Virus record (IMG/VR): IMGVR_UViG_3300036852_000041
Coordinates: 1-20,555 of that record
Source: a virus
Length of the DNA stretch: 20,555 nucleotides
Reading direction: 5' to 3' (one strand)
The notes beneath the pieces were generated by a model that saw only the letters and a program-made list of their open reading frames with translations, made no database searches and was not told the origin of the DNA. The first letter of the stretch is position 1, and every line of letters begins with the position of its first letter. Positions 4,923 through 7,193 of the stretch are shown one piece after another. The position numbers were made by a program, and so were the translations under genes.

Positions 4923-5015
4923 TGGAGGAAGGACAGAGATTCGAACTCTGACACCCAGGTTCGCTGGGCTCTGCGGGGTTCAAGCCCGCCGCCTTACCGT
5001 TGAGACTACCCTTCC
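4923..5015 (-). tRNA. tRNA-Ser(TGA)
   Basis: 93 nt with encoded CCA. Acceptor GGAAGGG/TCCTTCC, anticodon loop CTTGAAC on a GCGGG/CCCGC stem. The long variable arm fits a class II serine tRNA. The elbow is standard: D-loop with CGG, T-loop TTCGAAT. Last tRNA of the array in transcription order. Confidence 0.95.
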
Positions 5016-5020
5016 ATGAA

Positions 5021-5107
5021 TGGCGGAAGCAGCAGGATTCGAACCTGCACAACCCGTGAAGGTCGCTGCTTTAGCAAAGCAGTGCCATACCGTTAGGCGA
5101 TACTTCC
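5021..5107 (-). tRNA. tRNA-Ser(GCT)
   Basis: 87 nt with encoded CCA. Acceptor GGAAGTA/TGCTTCC, anticodon loop TTGCTAA on CTGCT/AGCAG, long variable arm. Standard elbow (AACGGTA; TTCGAAT). Reads AGC/AGT codons. Confidence 0.95.
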
Positions 5108-5114
5108 GTTGAAT

Positions 5115-5192
5115 TGGTAGGCCGCATGAGAGTTGAACTCATATCTACGCAGGTTAAGAGCCTGGCGCTCTTGTCCGTTAAGCTACCGGCCT
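5115..5192 (-). tRNA. tRNA-Lys(CTT)
   Basis: 78 nt with encoded CCA. Anticodon loop CTCTTAA. The D-loop has CGG and the T-loop is TTCAACT, a standard elbow. The acceptor has a G7-G66 mismatch and the anticodon stem a C27-C43 mismatch. C34 limits it to AAG codons; no TTT-anticodon partner is in the array. Confidence 0.92.
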
Positions 5193-5198
5193 ACGAAT

Positions 5199-5276
5199 TG
5201 GCTCTAGGTCAAGGAATCGAACCTTGCTCATTCCTGATTAACAGTCAGGCGCTCTCACCTTGAGTGCTAACCTAGA
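5199..5276 (-). tRNA. tRNA-Asn(GTT)
   Basis: 78 nt with encoded CCA. Perfect acceptor TCTAGGT/ACCTAGA, anticodon stem CCTGA/TCAGG with loop CTGTTAA. Standard elbow: D-loop with AAGG, T-loop TTCGATT. Discriminator G. Confidence 0.95.
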
Positions 5277-5283
5277 GTGAAAC

Positions 5284-5337
5284 TGGGCGCGGCACTTTTG
5301 CTCGTAGCATTTCTGGGCCTTGAGACTTCCGCGCGTA
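5284..5337 (-). other. Short tRNA-like element
   Basis: A spacer between the Trp and Asn tRNAs, about 50 nt. On the minus strand GCGCGG (5329-5334) pairs perfectly with CCGCGC (5287-5292), which is followed at once by CCA (5284-5286), like an acceptor stem. Inside it are a small TGCT/AGCA stem and the motif GCAAAAGT, which recurs in the spacer at 5681-5722. There are no complete D and T arms. It may be a tRNA remnant or a small processed RNA. Confidence 0.3.
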
Positions 5338-5409
5338 TGGCGAGCCGTGTAGGTGCTGCCCCCACTCACCCGGGTTTTGGAAACTCAGGAGCGTGCTGAC
5401 GCCCGACTC
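5338..5409 (-). tRNA. tRNA-Trp(CCA), atypical elbow
   Basis: 72 nt with encoded CCA. Acceptor GAGTCGG/ACGGCTC (last pair mismatched), anticodon loop TTCCAAA on TGAGT/ACCCG with an A29-C41 mismatch. The D-arm is cut down to GCGT-CAGC-ACGC, a tetraloop, with no normal bases 8-9. The T-arm is GTGGG-GGCAGCA-CCTAC. The elbow therefore reads A18 G19 with G55 C56 and G54-G58. Foldable and CCA-bearing, but strongly divergent. Confidence 0.75.
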
Positions 5410-5413
5410 ATAT

Positions 5414-5492
5414 TGGAACCCTGTGGAGGATTCAAACCTCCGACCTAGCAGTTCGTAGCTGCTTGCTCTGGTTCAGGCTGAGCTAACAGGGC
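5414..5492 (-). tRNA. tRNA-Arg(ACG), swapped elbow pair
   Basis: 79 nt with encoded CCA. Acceptor GCCCTGT/ACAGGGT, anticodon loop CTACGAA on AGCAG/CTGCT. The D-loop reads CTGAAC (G18 A19 in place of G18 G19) and the T-loop TTTGAAT (T55 T56 in place of T55 C56), so the usual G19-C56 pair is replaced by A19-T56. Confidence 0.93.
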
Positions 5493-5500
5493 GCGTAATC

Positions 5501-5588
5501 TGGTGCAAGCGGATGGATTCGAACCACCGTAGGTCGCAATGCCTGCGAGTTTACAGCTCGCCGTCGTTGGCCGCTTGACTACGCTTGC
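5501..5588 (-). tRNA. tRNA-Tyr(GTA)
   Basis: 88 nt with encoded CCA. Acceptor GCAAGCG/CGCTTGC, anticodon stem GCGAG/CTCGC with loop CTGTAAA, and the long variable arm typical of bacterial tyrosine tRNA. Standard elbow (GCGGCC; TTCGAAT). Confidence 0.95.
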
Positions 5589-5595
5589 GTGAAAT

Positions 5596-5670
5596 TGGAG
5601 CCACCTGGATGAATCGAACACCCGACTCGTCCTTACGAAAGGCGCGTTTTGCCACTAGAACTAAGGTGAC
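5596..5670 (-). tRNA. tRNA-Thr(CGT)
   Basis: 75 nt with encoded CCA. Acceptor GTCACCT/AGGTGGC, anticodon loop TTCGTAA on CGCCT/GGACG with a C29-A41 mismatch. Standard elbow (AGTGGC; TTCGATT). Confidence 0.9.
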
Positions 5671-5680
5671 TCGAAGAAAC

Positions 5681-5722
5681 GGTCCGGGACTTTTGCGCGC
5701 TCAGAAACACGACTACCGGCCC
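5681..5722 (-). other. Short structured element between Thr tRNAs
   Basis: A spacer of 57 nt (5671-5727) holding a stem, GG-G-CCGG with CCGG-A-CC on the minus strand (one G-A mismatch), around a 27-nt interior with GCAAAAGT. That motif and its flanks (CCG before, GTTTC after) align with the element at 5284-5337, suggesting a common origin. It has no CCA end. Confidence 0.25.
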
Positions 5723-5727
5723 GACGA

Positions 5728-5801
5728 TGGAGCCAAGAGATGGAATCGAACCATCACCGCGTTCTTACCAAGAACGCATTCTACCACTAAACTATCCTGA
5801 C
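5728..5801 (-). tRNA. tRNA-Thr(GGT)
   Basis: 74 nt with encoded CCA. Acceptor GTCAGGA/TCTTGGC, anticodon stem CGTTC/GAACG with loop TTGGTAA. Standard elbow (AGTGGTA; TTCGATT). Confidence 0.95.
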
Positions 5802-5807
5802 TCGAAC

Positions 5808-5882
5808 TGGCGACCACAAGGGGAATCGAACCCCTACAGTACGCTGGACAGGCGTACGTCATTGCCGTTAGACCATGTGGCC
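5808..5882 (-). tRNA. tRNA-Asp(GTC)
   Basis: 75 nt with encoded CCA. Acceptor GGCCACA/TGTGGTC, anticodon stem TACGC/GCGTA with loop CTGTCCA, discriminator G as usual for Asp. Standard elbow (AACGGCA; TTCGATT). Base 37 is C. Confidence 0.94.
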
Positions 5883-5887
5883 GTAAT

Positions 5888-5965
5888 TGGGGTAACGTGA
5901 GTGACTCGCACACTCTTCGATGCCTTCACAGGGCACCCGCTCACTATCAAGCTGCTTACGTCACC
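5888..5965 (-). tRNA. tRNA-His(GTG), A18/G55 elbow
   Basis: 78 nt with encoded CCA, counting the extra 5' G. It has the histidine hallmark G-1 opposite C73. Anticodon stem GTGCC/GGCAT with loop CTGTGAA. The D-loop carries GATAGT (A18 G19) and the T-loop is TGCGAGT (G55 C56, T54-A58 kept). The bases before the D-stem are slightly longer than normal. Confidence 0.9.
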
Positions 5966-5972
5966 GTGGAAC

Positions 5973-6044
5973 TGGTGGAGATGCGGGGTAACGCTCCCCG
6001 AAACTCTGCTTGCAAAGCAAAGGTGCGACCTTTCGCACACCCCC
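5973..6044 (-). tRNA. tRNA-Ala(TGC), reduced D-arm
   Basis: 72 nt with encoded CCA. Acceptor GGGGGTG/CATCTCC contains the G3-T70 wobble that marks alanine tRNA. Anticodon stem TTTGC/GCAGA with loop TTTGCAA. The D-arm is GCGA-AAGG-TCGC, only a tetraloop. The T-arm is CGGGG-AGCGTTA-CCCCG, giving G55 C56 and an A54-T58 pair. Confidence 0.88.
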
Positions 6045-6050
6045 ATAAAT

Positions 6051-6127
6051 TGGTAGCGGTGGTGGGAATTGCACCCGACCGTATTGTGCTTATGAGGCAC
6101 ACATGCCCACTAGGGCATCTCACCGCA
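6051..6127 (-). tRNA. tRNA with CAT anticodon (Met-type), A18/G55 elbow
   Basis: 77 nt with encoded CCA. Anticodon stem TGTGC/GCACA with loop CTCATAA. The first acceptor pair is a T1-T72 mismatch, as expected of an initiator, but the three G-C pairs of initiator anticodon stems are missing. It could be initiator, elongator Met or a lysidine-modified Ile tRNA. The D-arm is a 6-bp stem with TAGT tetraloop. The T-loop is TGCAATT and the T-stem has a bulged C. Confidence 0.8.
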
Positions 6128-6134
6128 GTGAAGT

Positions 6135-6208
6135 TGGTTGTCTCTGCTGGTACCGCCCCAGCATCACCTGTGTTTCAGGCAGGTGCTTTACTATTAAGCT
6201 AAGAGACA
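6135..6208 (-). tRNA. tRNA-Phe(GAA), A18/G55 elbow
   Basis: 74 nt with encoded CCA. Perfect acceptor TGTCTCT/AGAGACA, D-arm GCTT-AATAGTA-AAGC, anticodon loop CTGAAAC on CCTGC/ACAGG with a C31-A39 mismatch. The T-arm GCTGG-GGCGGTA-CCAGC has a perfect stem but a G54 G55 C56 loop with G58. Confidence 0.9.
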
Positions 6209-6209
6209 T

Positions 6210-6284
6210 TGGCTATCGCTGCTGGAATCGCACCAGCATCTGCACTTTCAGAGAGTGCGGTCCTAGCTGTTAAACGAAGCGATA
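6210..6284 (-). tRNA. tRNA-Gln(CTG), A18/G55 elbow
   Basis: 75 nt with encoded CCA. Perfect acceptor TATCGCT/AGCGATA, anticodon stem GCACT/AGTGC with loop CTCTGAA. D-loop AACAGCTA (A18 G19), T-arm GCTGG-TGCGATT-CCAGC (G55 C56, T54-A58). Reads only CAG. Confidence 0.92.
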
Positions 6285-6292
6285 GTGAAACT

Positions 6293-6366
6293 TGGAGATG
6301 CCTGCGAGAGTCGAACTCGCTTGGCGCGGGTTGCAGCCGCGTGCTTGGCCGTCCAGCCCAAGCATC
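6293..6366 (-). tRNA. tRNA-Cys(GCA)
   Basis: 74 nt with encoded CCA. Acceptor GATGCTT/AGGCATC, anticodon stem CGCGG/CCGCG with loop CTGCAAC, discriminator T as in Cys tRNAs. Standard elbow (GACGGCC; TTCGACT). Base 8 is G instead of T. Confidence 0.94.
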
Positions 6367-6372
6367 CCGAAA

Positions 6373-6448
6373 TGGTCAGAGCAGCGGGAGCCGCCCCCGC
6401 ATCACAAACTTGAGAGGTTCGTATCCTGTCTAGTTAGACGATGCTCTG
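6373..6448 (-). tRNA. tRNA-Glu(CTC), A18/G55 elbow
   Basis: 76 nt with encoded CCA. Perfect acceptor CAGAGCA/TGCTCTG, anticodon stem CGAAC/GTTTG with loop CTCTCAA. The D-loop holds CTAGAC (A18 G19). The T-arm GCGGG-GGCGGCT-CCCGC gives G54 G55 C56 and G58. C34 restricts it to GAG. Confidence 0.9.
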
Positions 6449-6451
6449 AGT

Positions 6452-6527
6452 TGGGCTCTCCGAGAGGATTCGAACCCCTGACGCCCGGGATAGAAGCCCG
6501 GCGTTCTGTCCACTGAACTACGGAGAG
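6452..6527 (-). tRNA. tRNA-Arg(TCT)
   Basis: 76 nt with encoded CCA. Acceptor CTCTCCG/CGGAGAG, anticodon stem CCGGG/CCCGG with loop CTTCTAT. Standard elbow (AGTGGACA; TTCGAAT). Reads AGA/AGG, codons rare in many bacteria. Confidence 0.95.
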
Positions 6528-6530
6528 ATT

Positions 6531-6604
6531 TGGTAGCTGCTGAGAGATTCGCACTCTCATGACCCAATAATAAGTTAGGCATCCTGCTGTTGGATGAAGC
6601 AGCG
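6531..6604 (-). tRNA. tRNA-Ile(TAT), A18/G55 elbow
   Basis: 74 nt with encoded CCA. Anticodon stem CCTAA/TTGGG with loop CTTATTA (T33, anticodon TAT, T37). The first acceptor pair is a C1-T72 mismatch. D-arm ATCC-AACAGCA-GGAT (A18 G19), T-arm GAGAG-TGCGAAT-CTCTC (G55 C56). Confidence 0.88.
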
Positions 6605-6607
6605 ATT

Positions 6608-6681
6608 TGGTACGAACCCTAAGAATTGCACTCAGATTCCACGGTAATCGGCCGTGTGTCTTGCTGTTAGACGAGGCTCGT
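6608..6681 (-). tRNA. tRNA-Ile(GAT), A18/G55 elbow and C33
   Basis: 74 nt with encoded CCA. Acceptor ACGAGCC/GGTTCGT, D-arm GTCT-AACAGCA-AGAC, T-arm CTGAG-TGCAATT-CTTAG. Anticodon stem CACGG/CCGTG with loop CCGATTA, so base 33 is C instead of the near-universal T, and base 37 is T. Confidence 0.86.
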
Positions 6682-6682
6682 A

Positions 6683-6759
6683 TGGTGCGCGGCAAGGGAG
6701 TCGAACCCCTACTGACCAGGGTTTGAGTCTGGTTCCTCTGCCAATTGGGATACCCGCGC
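6683..6759 (-). tRNA. tRNA with CAA anticodon (Leu-type), short variable loop
   Basis: 77 nt with encoded CCA. Acceptor GCGCGGG/GCCGCGC (G7-G66 mismatch), anticodon loop CTCAAAC on CCAGA/CCTGG (A31-C39 mismatch). Standard elbow (ATTGGCA; TTCGACT). The anticodon would read TTG (Leu), yet the variable loop is only TCAGT, not the long arm expected of leucine. Its charging is therefore uncertain. Confidence 0.82.
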
Positions 6760-6764
6760 ATAAT

Positions 6765-6850
6765 TGGTACGCTCGGAGAGATTTGAACTCCCACGCGGTT
6801 TCCCGCCACGCGTTCTAAGCGCGTGTTGTCTTCCGTTCCAGCACGAGCGC
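6765..6850 (-). tRNA. tRNA-Leu(TAG)
   Basis: 86 nt with encoded CCA. Acceptor GCGCTCG/CGAGCGT, anticodon stem ACGCG/CGCGT with loop CTTAGAA, and a long variable arm. The D-loop GGAACGGAAGACA is Leu-like, T-loop TTCAAAT. Standard elbow. Confidence 0.95.
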
Positions 6851-6856
6851 ACGAAA

Positions 6857-6932
6857 TGGTGCAAGCTGTAGGAATCGGACCCACCTTGCCTCGCTTGTAA
6901 GGCGAGCACTCTCCCCAGAGAGTTAAGCTTGC
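6857..6932 (-). tRNA. tRNA-Val(TAC), C55 T-loop
   Basis: 76 nt with encoded CCA. Acceptor GCAAGCT/AGCTTGC, anticodon stem CTCGC/GCGAG with loop CTTACAA. The D-arm is a 6-bp ACTCTC/GAGAGT stem with a TGGG tetraloop. The T-arm GTGGG-TCCGATT-CCTAC has C55, which could form a Watson-Crick pair with G18. Confidence 0.93.
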
Positions 6933-6939
6933 ATGAAAC

Positions 6940-7016
6940 TGGACCAGCAAGCGGGATTCGAACCCGCACCACCTACTTGGAAGGAAGGTGTGCTAACCGT
7001 TGAACACTATTGCTAG
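6940..7016 (-). tRNA. tRNA-Gly(TCC)
   Basis: 77 nt with encoded CCA. Acceptor CTAGCAA/TTGCTGG, anticodon loop CTTCCAA on CCTTC/GTAGG with a T30-T40 mismatch. Standard elbow (AACGGTTA; TTCGAAT), unlike the other glycine tRNA of the array. Confidence 0.93.
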
Positions 7017-7023
7017 GTCAGAA

Positions 7024-7098
7024 TGGACCGGCTCACGGGTACTGCCCCCGCTGCCTCGACATTGGCAATGTCGCGCTCTACTAGTGAGCTAGAGCCGG
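7024..7098 (-). tRNA. tRNA-Gly(GCC), A18/G55 elbow
   Basis: 75 nt with encoded CCA. Perfect acceptor CCGGCTC/GAGCCGG, D-arm GCTC-ACTAGTA-GAGC, anticodon stem CGACA/TGTCG with loop TTGCCAA. The T-arm GCGGG-GGCAGTA-CCCGT gives G54 G55 C56 and G58. Confidence 0.93.
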
Positions 7099-7117
7099 AT
7101 GGAACTACTACACAAAA

Positions 7118-7193
7118 TGGTCTGGGCGGGTGGCTCTGCCCCACCGTTTTCCCGGTTCCAGGCCGGGTGGATTACTGGCTTTCCTACACCCAG
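7118..7193 (-). tRNA. tRNA-Pro(TGG), A18/G55 elbow and C33
   Basis: 76 nt with encoded CCA; first tRNA of the array. Acceptor CTGGGTG/CGCCCAG, D-arm GGA-AAGCCAGTAA-TCC (A18 G19). Anticodon stem CCCGG/CCGGG with loop CCTGGAA, so base 33 is C. The T-arm GGTGG-GGCAGAG-CCACC gives G54 G55 C56 and G58. Confidence 0.88.

Follow-up and report, generated by a model that had tools for sequence, protein, structure and literature searches.

An A18-G55 elbow swap recurs in phage array tRNAs and in other virus and bacterial tRNAs

Eleven of the 26 tRNAs in a phage tRNA array carry G55 in the T loop, and ten of these read A18-G19 in the D loop. Hundreds of further tRNAs from viruses and bacteria show this swap, and comparison of the aligned genes shows positions 18 and 55 to have changed together, repeatedly, across many isoacceptors and lineages. 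We consider it likely, on sequence grounds, that the eleven function as elongator tRNAs, with A18-G55 serving as an alternative tertiary pair of the elbow. The contact between G18 and pseudouridine 55 (ψ55) has been called essentially invariant in reviews. No earlier description of an A18-G55 elbow was found in the literature searched, and the D/T-loop variant selections of the Steinberg group, cited in PMC7912444, may have met it in the laboratory.

The tRNA array and its elbow states

The window is the whole stretch of DNA analysed, 20,555 nucleotides of IMG/VR record IMGVR_UViG_3300036852_000041. Hand reading and a structural scanner blind to positions 18 and 55 place 26 tRNA genes on the minus strand within 2.27 kb (4923-7193), so that the array starts at 4923, ahead of the first position (5338) quoted in the sequence-only reading. 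All 20 amino acids are covered, and the array has the make-up of a tRNA array unit (dense, at least 20 tRNAs, 19-20 amino acids). The genes are listed below with stem pairs out of 21 and, where noted, the tools or methods that support them.

7118-7193, minus, tRNA-Pro(TGG): A18-G19, G54-G55-C56, G58; 20/21 pairs; CCA
7024-7098, minus, tRNA-Gly(GCC): A18-G19, G54-G55-C56, G58; 21/21 pairs; Rfam 44 bits; cloverleaf fold
6940-7016, minus, tRNA-Gly(TCC): standard elbow; additional T in acceptor 5' strand; ARAGORN, structural scanner
6857-6932, minus, tRNA-Val(TAC): D loop GG, T54-C55-C56 (a G18-C55 variant); 21/21 pairs
6765-6850, minus, tRNA-Leu(TAG): standard elbow; ARAGORN, Rfam
6683-6759, minus, tRNA-Leu(CAA): standard elbow; short, 5-nt variable loop; ARAGORN, structural scanner
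6608-6681, minus, tRNA-Ile(GAT): A18-G19, T54-G55-C56, A58; 21/21 pairs; cloverleaf fold
6531-6604, minus, tRNA-Ile(TAT): A18-G19, T54-G55-C56, A58; 20/21 pairs
6452-6527, minus, tRNA-Arg(TCT): standard elbow; Rfam 60 bits
6373-6448, minus, tRNA-Glu(CTC): A18-G19, G54-G55-C56, G58; 21/21 pairs
6293-6366, minus, tRNA-Cys(GCA): standard elbow; ARAGORN, structural scanner
6210-6284, minus, tRNA-Gln(CTG): A18-G19, T54-G55-C56, A58; 21/21 pairs; ARAGORN, Rfam
6135-6208, minus, tRNA-Phe(GAA): A18-G19, G54-G55-C56, G58; 20/21 pairs; Rfam 50.5 bits
6051-6127, minus, tRNA with CAT anticodon (Met; Ile if lysidine-modified): A18-G19, T54-G55-C56, A58; T stem with a bulged C; structural scanner, fold
5973-6044, minus, tRNA-Ala(TGC): D tetraloop AAGG (18/19 ambiguous), A54-G55-C56, T58; G3-U70 retained; hand reading, fold
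5888-5965, minus, tRNA-His(GTG) with G-1: D loop GATAGT (A18-G19), T54-G55-C56, A58; surplus bases 5' of D stem; ARAGORN, hand alignment
5808-5882, minus, tRNA-Asp(GTC): standard elbow; ARAGORN, Rfam
5728-5801, minus, tRNA-Thr(GGT): standard elbow; ARAGORN, Rfam
5596-5670, minus, tRNA-Thr(CGT): standard elbow; ARAGORN, Rfam
5501-5588, minus, tRNA-Tyr(GTA): standard elbow; ARAGORN, Rfam
5414-5492, minus, tRNA-Arg(ACG): G18-A19, T55-T56 (19-56 changed from G-C to A-U); 21/21 pairs
5338-5409, minus, tRNA-Trp(CCA): D loop TCAGCA (A18-G19 by hand), G54-G55-C56, G58; short D arm, lengthened anticodon stem; fold no better than shuffled sequences
5199-5276, minus, tRNA-Asn(GTT): standard elbow; ARAGORN, Rfam
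5115-5192, minus, tRNA-Lys(CTT): standard elbow; ARAGORN, Rfam
5021-5107, minus, tRNA-Ser(GCT): standard elbow; ARAGORN, Rfam
4923-5015, minus, tRNA-Ser(TGA): standard elbow; ARAGORN, Rfam

The combination of A18-G19 with G55 is unambiguous in eight tRNAs (Pro, Gly-GCC, Ile-GAT, Ile-TAT, Glu, Gln, Phe and Met); His and Trp bring the number to ten, their A18 being called by hand alignment across a D arm with surplus or absent bases near positions 8-13. The eleventh, Ala, has G55 and a D tetraloop that can be aligned either way. The elbow swap in eleven tRNAs that the sequence-only reading had described was thus confirmed by hand and scanner, together with its caveat about Ala and its statement that A18 never occurs with T55; G18 with G55 is likewise absent from the 26. 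Its 13 standard tRNAs are indeed strictly standard, the remaining two genes being the Val variant and Arg-ACG, in which G19-C56 has become A19-U56 with compensation. The T loop it gave for the eleven held for the shared G55, whereas positions 54 and 58 are not uniform: T54-A58 in both Ile, Gln, Met and His, G54-G58 in Pro, Gly, Glu, Phe and Trp, and A54-T58 in Ala. If genes are taken as independent, the probability that both sets of 11 among the 26 coincide exactly is p = 1.3e-7 (3.1e-7 without Ala); the tree test below lifts this assumption.

Judged against RF00005, most altered tRNAs have the cloverleaf (stems of 7, 4, 5 and 5 bp, 7-nt anticodon and T loops) with 20-21 of 21 pairs, and G19-C56 is kept, while the conserved G18-U55 is missing from the ten A18-G55 tRNAs and from Ala with its G55. 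It is very improbable that the class consists of decaying pseudogenes or assembly errors. The D arms of His, Trp and Ala are irregular and Gly-TCC and Met have surplus bases, but the stems are perfect in most altered tRNAs, CCA is encoded, the changes at 18-55, 54-58 and 19-56 are compensated, and many independent contigs show the same swap. For the class as a whole this reading is refuted; single irregular genes may be dead, and His, Trp and Ala may be the defective ones here.

Coupled change in other viruses and bacteria

Among 481 tRNAs from the fetched virus and bacterial loci (neighbours on the fetched contigs, with bait tRNAs removed), A18 occurred with G55 in 200 of 207 cases and with another base in 7, and G18 with G55 in 0 of 204 and with another base in all 204. 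A scan of the whole of IMG/VR for A18 with G55 gave at least 120 matches, with dozens of sound tRNAs among the matches listed; G18 with G55 gave 17 matches, no tRNA among them, and A18 with T55 gave about four genuine tRNAs (L431, L393, L401 and L464) among the 120 matches listed. The evolutionary route would have led through A18-U55 and not G18-G55. On a stem-only tree of 427 tRNAs, class changes number about 105 at minimum, and 23 independent switches fall on supported branches; almost every pairing showed 55 moving together with 18, and none showed it moving the opposite way (sign test p = 2.4e-7). Counts, scans and tree strongly support the view that the 18-55 contact was replaced in a coupled fashion, and the independent D-loop and T-loop changes in related tRNAs that would speak against it were looked for and are not the case.

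The elbow state can also be followed between homologous arrays. In that of another phage (L134), several orthologues have the opposite state, the differences affecting Pro, Phe, Cys, Tyr, Lys and Asp. Our tRNA-Pro(TGG) is 87% identical outside the loops to the standard-elbow tRNA-Pro of L134, tRNA-Phe is altered here and standard there, and tRNA-Cys(GCA) is standard here and has the alternative elbow there. The L134 orthologue of tRNA-Ile(TAT) is 91% identical and has the same elbow; that of tRNA-Ser(TGA), also 91% identical, is standard in both. If a single altered ancestor had been copied and had acquired new anticodons, the coupling would count only once. Such an origin is extremely improbable: no support for it was found, most altered array tRNAs (Pro, Gly-GCC, both Ile, Glu, Gln, Phe and Met) are nearest to tRNAs for the same amino acid, altered or standard, and the tree holds at least 23 independent switches. 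It was rejected on these two grounds.

Other elbow positions follow suit. The 54-58 pair is T-A, G-G or A-T in 229 of 256 altered-class tRNAs (shuffled mean 126, maximum 146), the 19-56 pair also covaries, and C56 is present in 164 of 165 altered tRNAs of relatives. All 20 amino acids occur in the altered class of the relatives, with no isoacceptor bias save a depletion of class II, and discriminator bases track the isoacceptor in both elbow classes.

A class of eleven in one array had been thought unusual; the swap is in fact widespread in environmental virus and bacterial arrays, but it is absent from the 22-tRNA array of Erwinia phage phiEa21-4, the one isolated-phage array checked. BLAST of the altered tRNAs against isolated phages returned standard-elbow tRNAs only, and Vibrio phage KVP40 has no tRNA array within the stretch examined. 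None of the 50 records searched for relatives by capsid protein contains tRNAs, and the array is therefore no trait of the family; a search with two other proteins found no relatives.

Function of the altered tRNAs

In one Ca. Nomurabacteria genome (G051), A18-G55 is present in the sole Phe, both Glu and one Thr tRNA, although this metagenome-assembled genome could be missing a second Phe or Glu tRNA. Since its only Phe and Glu tRNAs carry the A18-G55 form, this form very probably takes part in translation, and its sufficiency for translation in at least one bacterium is strongly indicated. Across 148 genomes of the same order, every Glu match had GG with TTC except the two of G051, which had AG with TGC, and none was mixed; a narrow-pattern scan of Patescibacteria matched 1 of 192 genomes.

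The cell-wall tRNA-Gly of staphylococci, which is non-proteinogenic, also has altered elbow bases, and the sequence-only reading had drawn that parallel. That the altered tRNAs similarly avoid EF-Tu and the ribosome is nevertheless very unlikely, as they span all 20 amino acids where the staphylococcal case concerns Gly only and peptidoglycan use, retain normal anticodons, identity bases and G19-C56, have a compensated pair and serve as the only tRNAs for Phe and Glu in one genome.

In the translational reading, A18-G55 would substitute for G18-U55(ψ55) with the L-shape retained. The D-loop/T-loop fold would still be held by G19-C56, a matched 54-58 pair and purine 57. The exposed 19-56 face, read by the ribosome, RNase P and other partners, would be kept. 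TruB requires 53-GUUYRANYC-61 (PMC7912444), a target that G55 abolishes; the removal of the ψ55 site, claimed earlier, follows from the sequence, as does loss of the G18 target. The altered RNAs are predicted to be unable to carry ψ55 (TruB), Gm18 (TrmH) and often m5U54 (TrmA), so their elbow would be independent of these host modifications.

What drives the change in arrays

The most likely driver in arrays is that the elbow no longer has to be modified by the host; the main rivals are neutral drift and evasion of elbow-reading enzymes. That A18-G55 is simply as good as G18-U55, with arrays drifting under weaker constraint than housekeeping tRNAs, is possible but doubtful. The frequent switching on the tree, an altered share that varies among arrays from a few percent to nearly all, and the lack of isoacceptor-specific logic beyond class II would fit; arrays that are almost wholly altered (22/25 in L110, 17/18 in L093, most of L275) and the fixation of the altered form in some essential bacterial tRNAs make it less likely.

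Somewhat less probable still is that the altered elbow lets array tRNAs escape nucleases or toxins with which the host recognises the T arm or elbow, and that phage and array tRNAs thereby survive when host tRNAs are destroyed. tRNA arrays are suspected anti-defence units (PMC12803027), anticodon-loop changes are known to let phage tRNAs evade (PMC10264068), and in Verrucomicrobium BvORR106 all 22 sampled chromosomal tRNAs are standard as against 8 of 10 scanned array tRNAs with A18-G55. Cas12a3 grips the T-arm backbone (PMC12851939), though its contact is to phosphates. Against evasion, over half of this array retains the normal elbow, orthologues switch in either direction between phages, and essential tRNAs of a Patescibacterium are altered. 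Defences that cut tRNAs usually aim at those for Lys, Arg, Tyr and Asn, and these show no enrichment among the altered tRNAs of the 481-tRNA set. Escape from tRNA-cutting defences had been put forward earlier; as evasion of anticodon nucleases it is unsupported by the isoacceptors affected, and the evaded enzyme may instead be an elbow- or T-arm-reading nuclease. In its broadest form, A18-G55 with its own 54-58 pairs would be a second, modification-independent elbow code and a selected device, providing a full reserve set of tRNAs that enzymes recognising the elbow (among them the ψ55, Gm18 and m5U54 modifiers and tRNA-destroying defences) cannot read but the ribosome still accepts; this we regard as a tentative suggestion, on a par with simple evasion.

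Whether arrays dodge host enzymes in this way becomes testable. By recurring in coupled form, the replacement supplies dozens of natural, independent tests by evolution of what an elbow requires. It implies that specific natural tRNAs can do without ψ55 and Gm18, and the altered tRNAs offer scaffolds for orthogonal tRNAs.

Detection by annotation tools

Altered-elbow tRNAs are often overlooked by standard annotation. ARAGORN reported 16 of the 26 array tRNAs, and scoring all 26 with the covariance model, as had been advised, put only 15-18 above the Rfam (RF00005) cut-off. ARAGORN missed 114 of 289 altered tRNAs (39%) versus 5 of 229 normal ones (2%), and virus tRNA counts would be too low in consequence.

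Comparison with known systems

The altered class shares with the canonical bacterial elongator tRNA (RF00005) its cloverleaf, anticodons, discriminators, encoded CCA, G19-C56 and purine 57; it differs in having A18-G55 instead of G18-U55, no TruB target, and a 54-58 pair that may be G-G, A-U or C-A and not U-A. The tRNA array units of phages, mycobacterial plasmids and cyanobacteria are likewise dense arrays on mobile genomes, and that literature, as searched, does not mention elbow variants (PMC6409571, PMC12803027, PMC10272220). In the phage tRNAs that escape through the anticodon loop, the change blocks nuclease cutting in that loop, whereas here it lies in the elbow. tRNA-Pyl and mammalian mitochondrial tRNAs naturally do without the standard 18-55 contact, but their D loop is small or missing and G19-C56 is lost (PMC7609411), whereas the altered class mostly has a D loop of normal size and retains 19-56. 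Eukaryotic tRNA-Ala and initiator tRNA, with A54-A58, offer a purine-purine replacement of an elbow tertiary pair, at 54-58 and 15-48 and not at 18-55 (PMC7566577).

The tRNA array and its elbow states

The linear 20,555-base IMG/VR virus record carries minus-strand genes for capsid, tail-collar, peptidase, hexapeptide-transferase and glycosyltransferase-like products, and an array of 26 tRNAs, every one with an encoded CCA and most separated by short spacers, that serves all 20 amino acids. The minus-strand order is Pro, Gly-GCC, Gly-TCC, Val, Leu-TAG, Leu-CAA, Ile-GAT, Ile-TAT, Arg-TCT, Glu, Cys, Gln, Phe, Met, Ala, His, Asp, Thr-GGT, Thr-CGT, Tyr, Arg-ACG, Trp, Asn, Lys, Ser-GCT and Ser-TGA.

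7193 down to 4923, minus strand: the tRNA array
7118-7193, minus strand: tRNA-Pro(TGG), C33 replacing U33 in the anticodon loop
6940-7016, minus strand: tRNA-Gly(TCC), single-base stem insertion (extra T in the acceptor)
6683-6759, minus strand: tRNA-Leu(CAA), 5-nt variable loop without the long class II arm
6608-6681, minus strand: tRNA-Ile(GAT), C33 replacing U33
6051-6127, minus strand: CAT tRNA, single-base stem insertion (bulged C in the T stem)
5671-5727, minus strand: array gap, hairpin-like stretch
5414-5492, minus strand: tRNA-Arg(ACG), A19-U56 for G19-C56
5277-5337, minus strand: array gap, hairpin-like stretch

The two gap stretches, of 57-61 bases, share GCAAAAGT and have tRNA-acceptor-like ends (CCGCGCCCA; CCGGACCG); neither holds a recognisable tRNA or folds better than its shuffles. 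C33 recurs in the related Pro tRNA of Alcaligenes phage QDWS595 and in the Pro and Ile-GAT tRNAs of L134, a phage contig with a homologous array.

The standard G18-U55 elbow is replaced unambiguously by A18 and G55 in Pro, Gly-GCC, both Ile, Glu, Gln, Phe and Met. The D arms of His and Trp are irregular, and aligning them by hand gives A18 with G55 there too; Ala has G55 and a D tetraloop. G19 and C56 are kept in these altered tRNAs, and positions 54 and 58 change jointly, as T-A, G-G or A-T. A second elbow pair is compensated in Arg-ACG, and Val, with G18-C55, is in a third elbow state. Most other T56 tRNAs in virus loci also have G18-A19 in the D loop, and G18 with C55 is seen in several tRNAs of a Ca. 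Nomurabacteria genome (two Ala, Gln-CTG, Val-GAC and Trp; loci L339, L338, L343 and L331).

Coupling of positions 18 and 55

The sequence-only reading had proposed that the D-loop and T-loop changes occur together, and this held well beyond the window. An A18+G55 pattern gave at least 120 matches in 2.9 million virus contigs, many of them metagenomic, and those listed included dozens of structurally sound tRNAs of many isoacceptors. All loci fetched with this bait, from virus and bacterial contigs, were scanned for tRNAs by stems and CCA, ignoring positions 18 and 55. Position 18 was then called from a GG where there was one, or else from an AG within the permitted stretch of the D loop, and tRNAs with ambiguous loops formed a category of their own. 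Among 481 neighbouring tRNAs, with the matches used as bait removed, 200 were A18/G55, 7 A18/non-G55, none G18/G55 and 204 G18/non-G55, the baiting inflating class frequencies and leaving the coupling unaffected. A G18+G55 pattern scan of virus contigs gave 17 matches and no tRNA, and an A18+T55 scan about four genuine tRNAs among the 120 matches listed, most of the others being ordinary tRNAs that fitted the pattern in the wrong register, or unrelated sequence. From these scans and the neighbour counts, the G18-G55 state is apparently excluded, with A18-U55 as the plausible intermediate of the switch.

Stems and anticodon loops alone, with D and T loops omitted, gave a tree that placed 23 position-18 switches on supported branches, all or nearly all with a matching switch at 55 and none with an opposite one (p = 2.4e-7). 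The L134 array, which lies alongside a capsid gene, has blocks of gene order in common with that of the window. Pro and Phe are altered in the window and standard in L134, and the opposite holds for Cys, Tyr, Lys and Asp; the two arrays agree in having altered elbows in both Ile, Glu and Gln, and standard ones in both Ser, Thr-CGT and Arg-TCT. The elbow is also standard in a related Pro tRNA of a Schitoviridae phage.

A conserved A18-G55 Gly(UCC)-like family (virus loci L091, L095-L098, L100, L101, L112, L114 and similar) has an apparent 8-nt anticodon loop (TATTCCAA) and a T stem with one additional A, and is possibly a frameshift-type tRNA. A repeated A18-G55 scaffold starting TACATAC carries many different anticodons, CTA included, in Nostoc and Calothrix (L210, L264, L277, L278, L286, L291, L303). 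Alcaligenes phage vB_Af_QDWS595 (L089, 4968-5221) encodes an unannotated permuted (two-piece) tmRNA (RF04321, 111 bits).

Occurrence in bacteria

Groups with A18-G55 tRNAs by pattern search of GTDB genomes include Patescibacteria, Planctomycetes, Nostoc and Verrucomicrobia. The array of Verrucomicrobium sp. BvORR106, with ordinary chromosomal-type genes as neighbours, has eight A18-G55 tRNAs, one standard and one G55 with an unclear D loop; its chromosomal tRNAs were standard in 22 of 22 sampled. In the metagenome-assembled Ca. Nomurabacteria genome, a scan of the 39 tRNAs that Rfam located gave A18-G55 for the sole Phe tRNA, for both of the Glu tRNAs and for one Thr tRNA. Glu tRNAs matched in 148 genomes of its order were all GG+TTC, except its own two with AG+TGC, and none was mixed at 18 and 55. 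Discriminator bases track the amino acid in both classes. Judged from sequence, it is strongly indicated that the A18-G55 form would suffice for translation in at least one bacterium.

Why arrays might favour the altered elbow

Anticodon nucleases as the driver are argued against, since their expected targets, Lys, Arg, Tyr and Asn, are not enriched in the altered class. Class II tRNAs are depleted in it, above all Ser (2 of 23 altered), a pattern that fits constraints from structure or from the synthetases better than a nuclease target list. The preference of arrays for A18-G55 may reflect release from host modification, evasion of nucleases that read the elbow, or drift between two equivalent states.

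Annotation and comparison with the standard elbow

ARAGORN missed 114 of 289 altered tRNAs vs 5 of 229 standard ones, and among the altered tRNAs missed were 54 of the 55 with G54-G58; in the window it reported 16 tRNAs, with only His and Gln from the altered eleven. A full-text search of openly licensed papers found no mention of A18-G55, nor do the available portions of reviews on non-canonical tRNAs, the elbow and T-loop modification describe it. The annotation misses may be why A18-G55 was overlooked; its novelty is provisional, as the literature search was confined to openly licensed papers.

In the standard elbow, according to PMC4810234 and PMC7912444, base 18 inserts between 57 and 58 and contacts psi55, and partners of the tRNA read the face that the 19-56 pair presents. 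The covariation suggests that A18 and G55 would touch or stack as a unit, with 54-58 still closing the T loop; position 60 is nearly always T if 54 is T, and otherwise mostly A. According to PMC7912444, TruB needs U55 within 53-GUUYRANYC-61 and TrmH targets G18, so that psi55 and Gm18 would be impossible on the altered tRNAs, as m5U54 would be on their G54, A54 and C54 forms.
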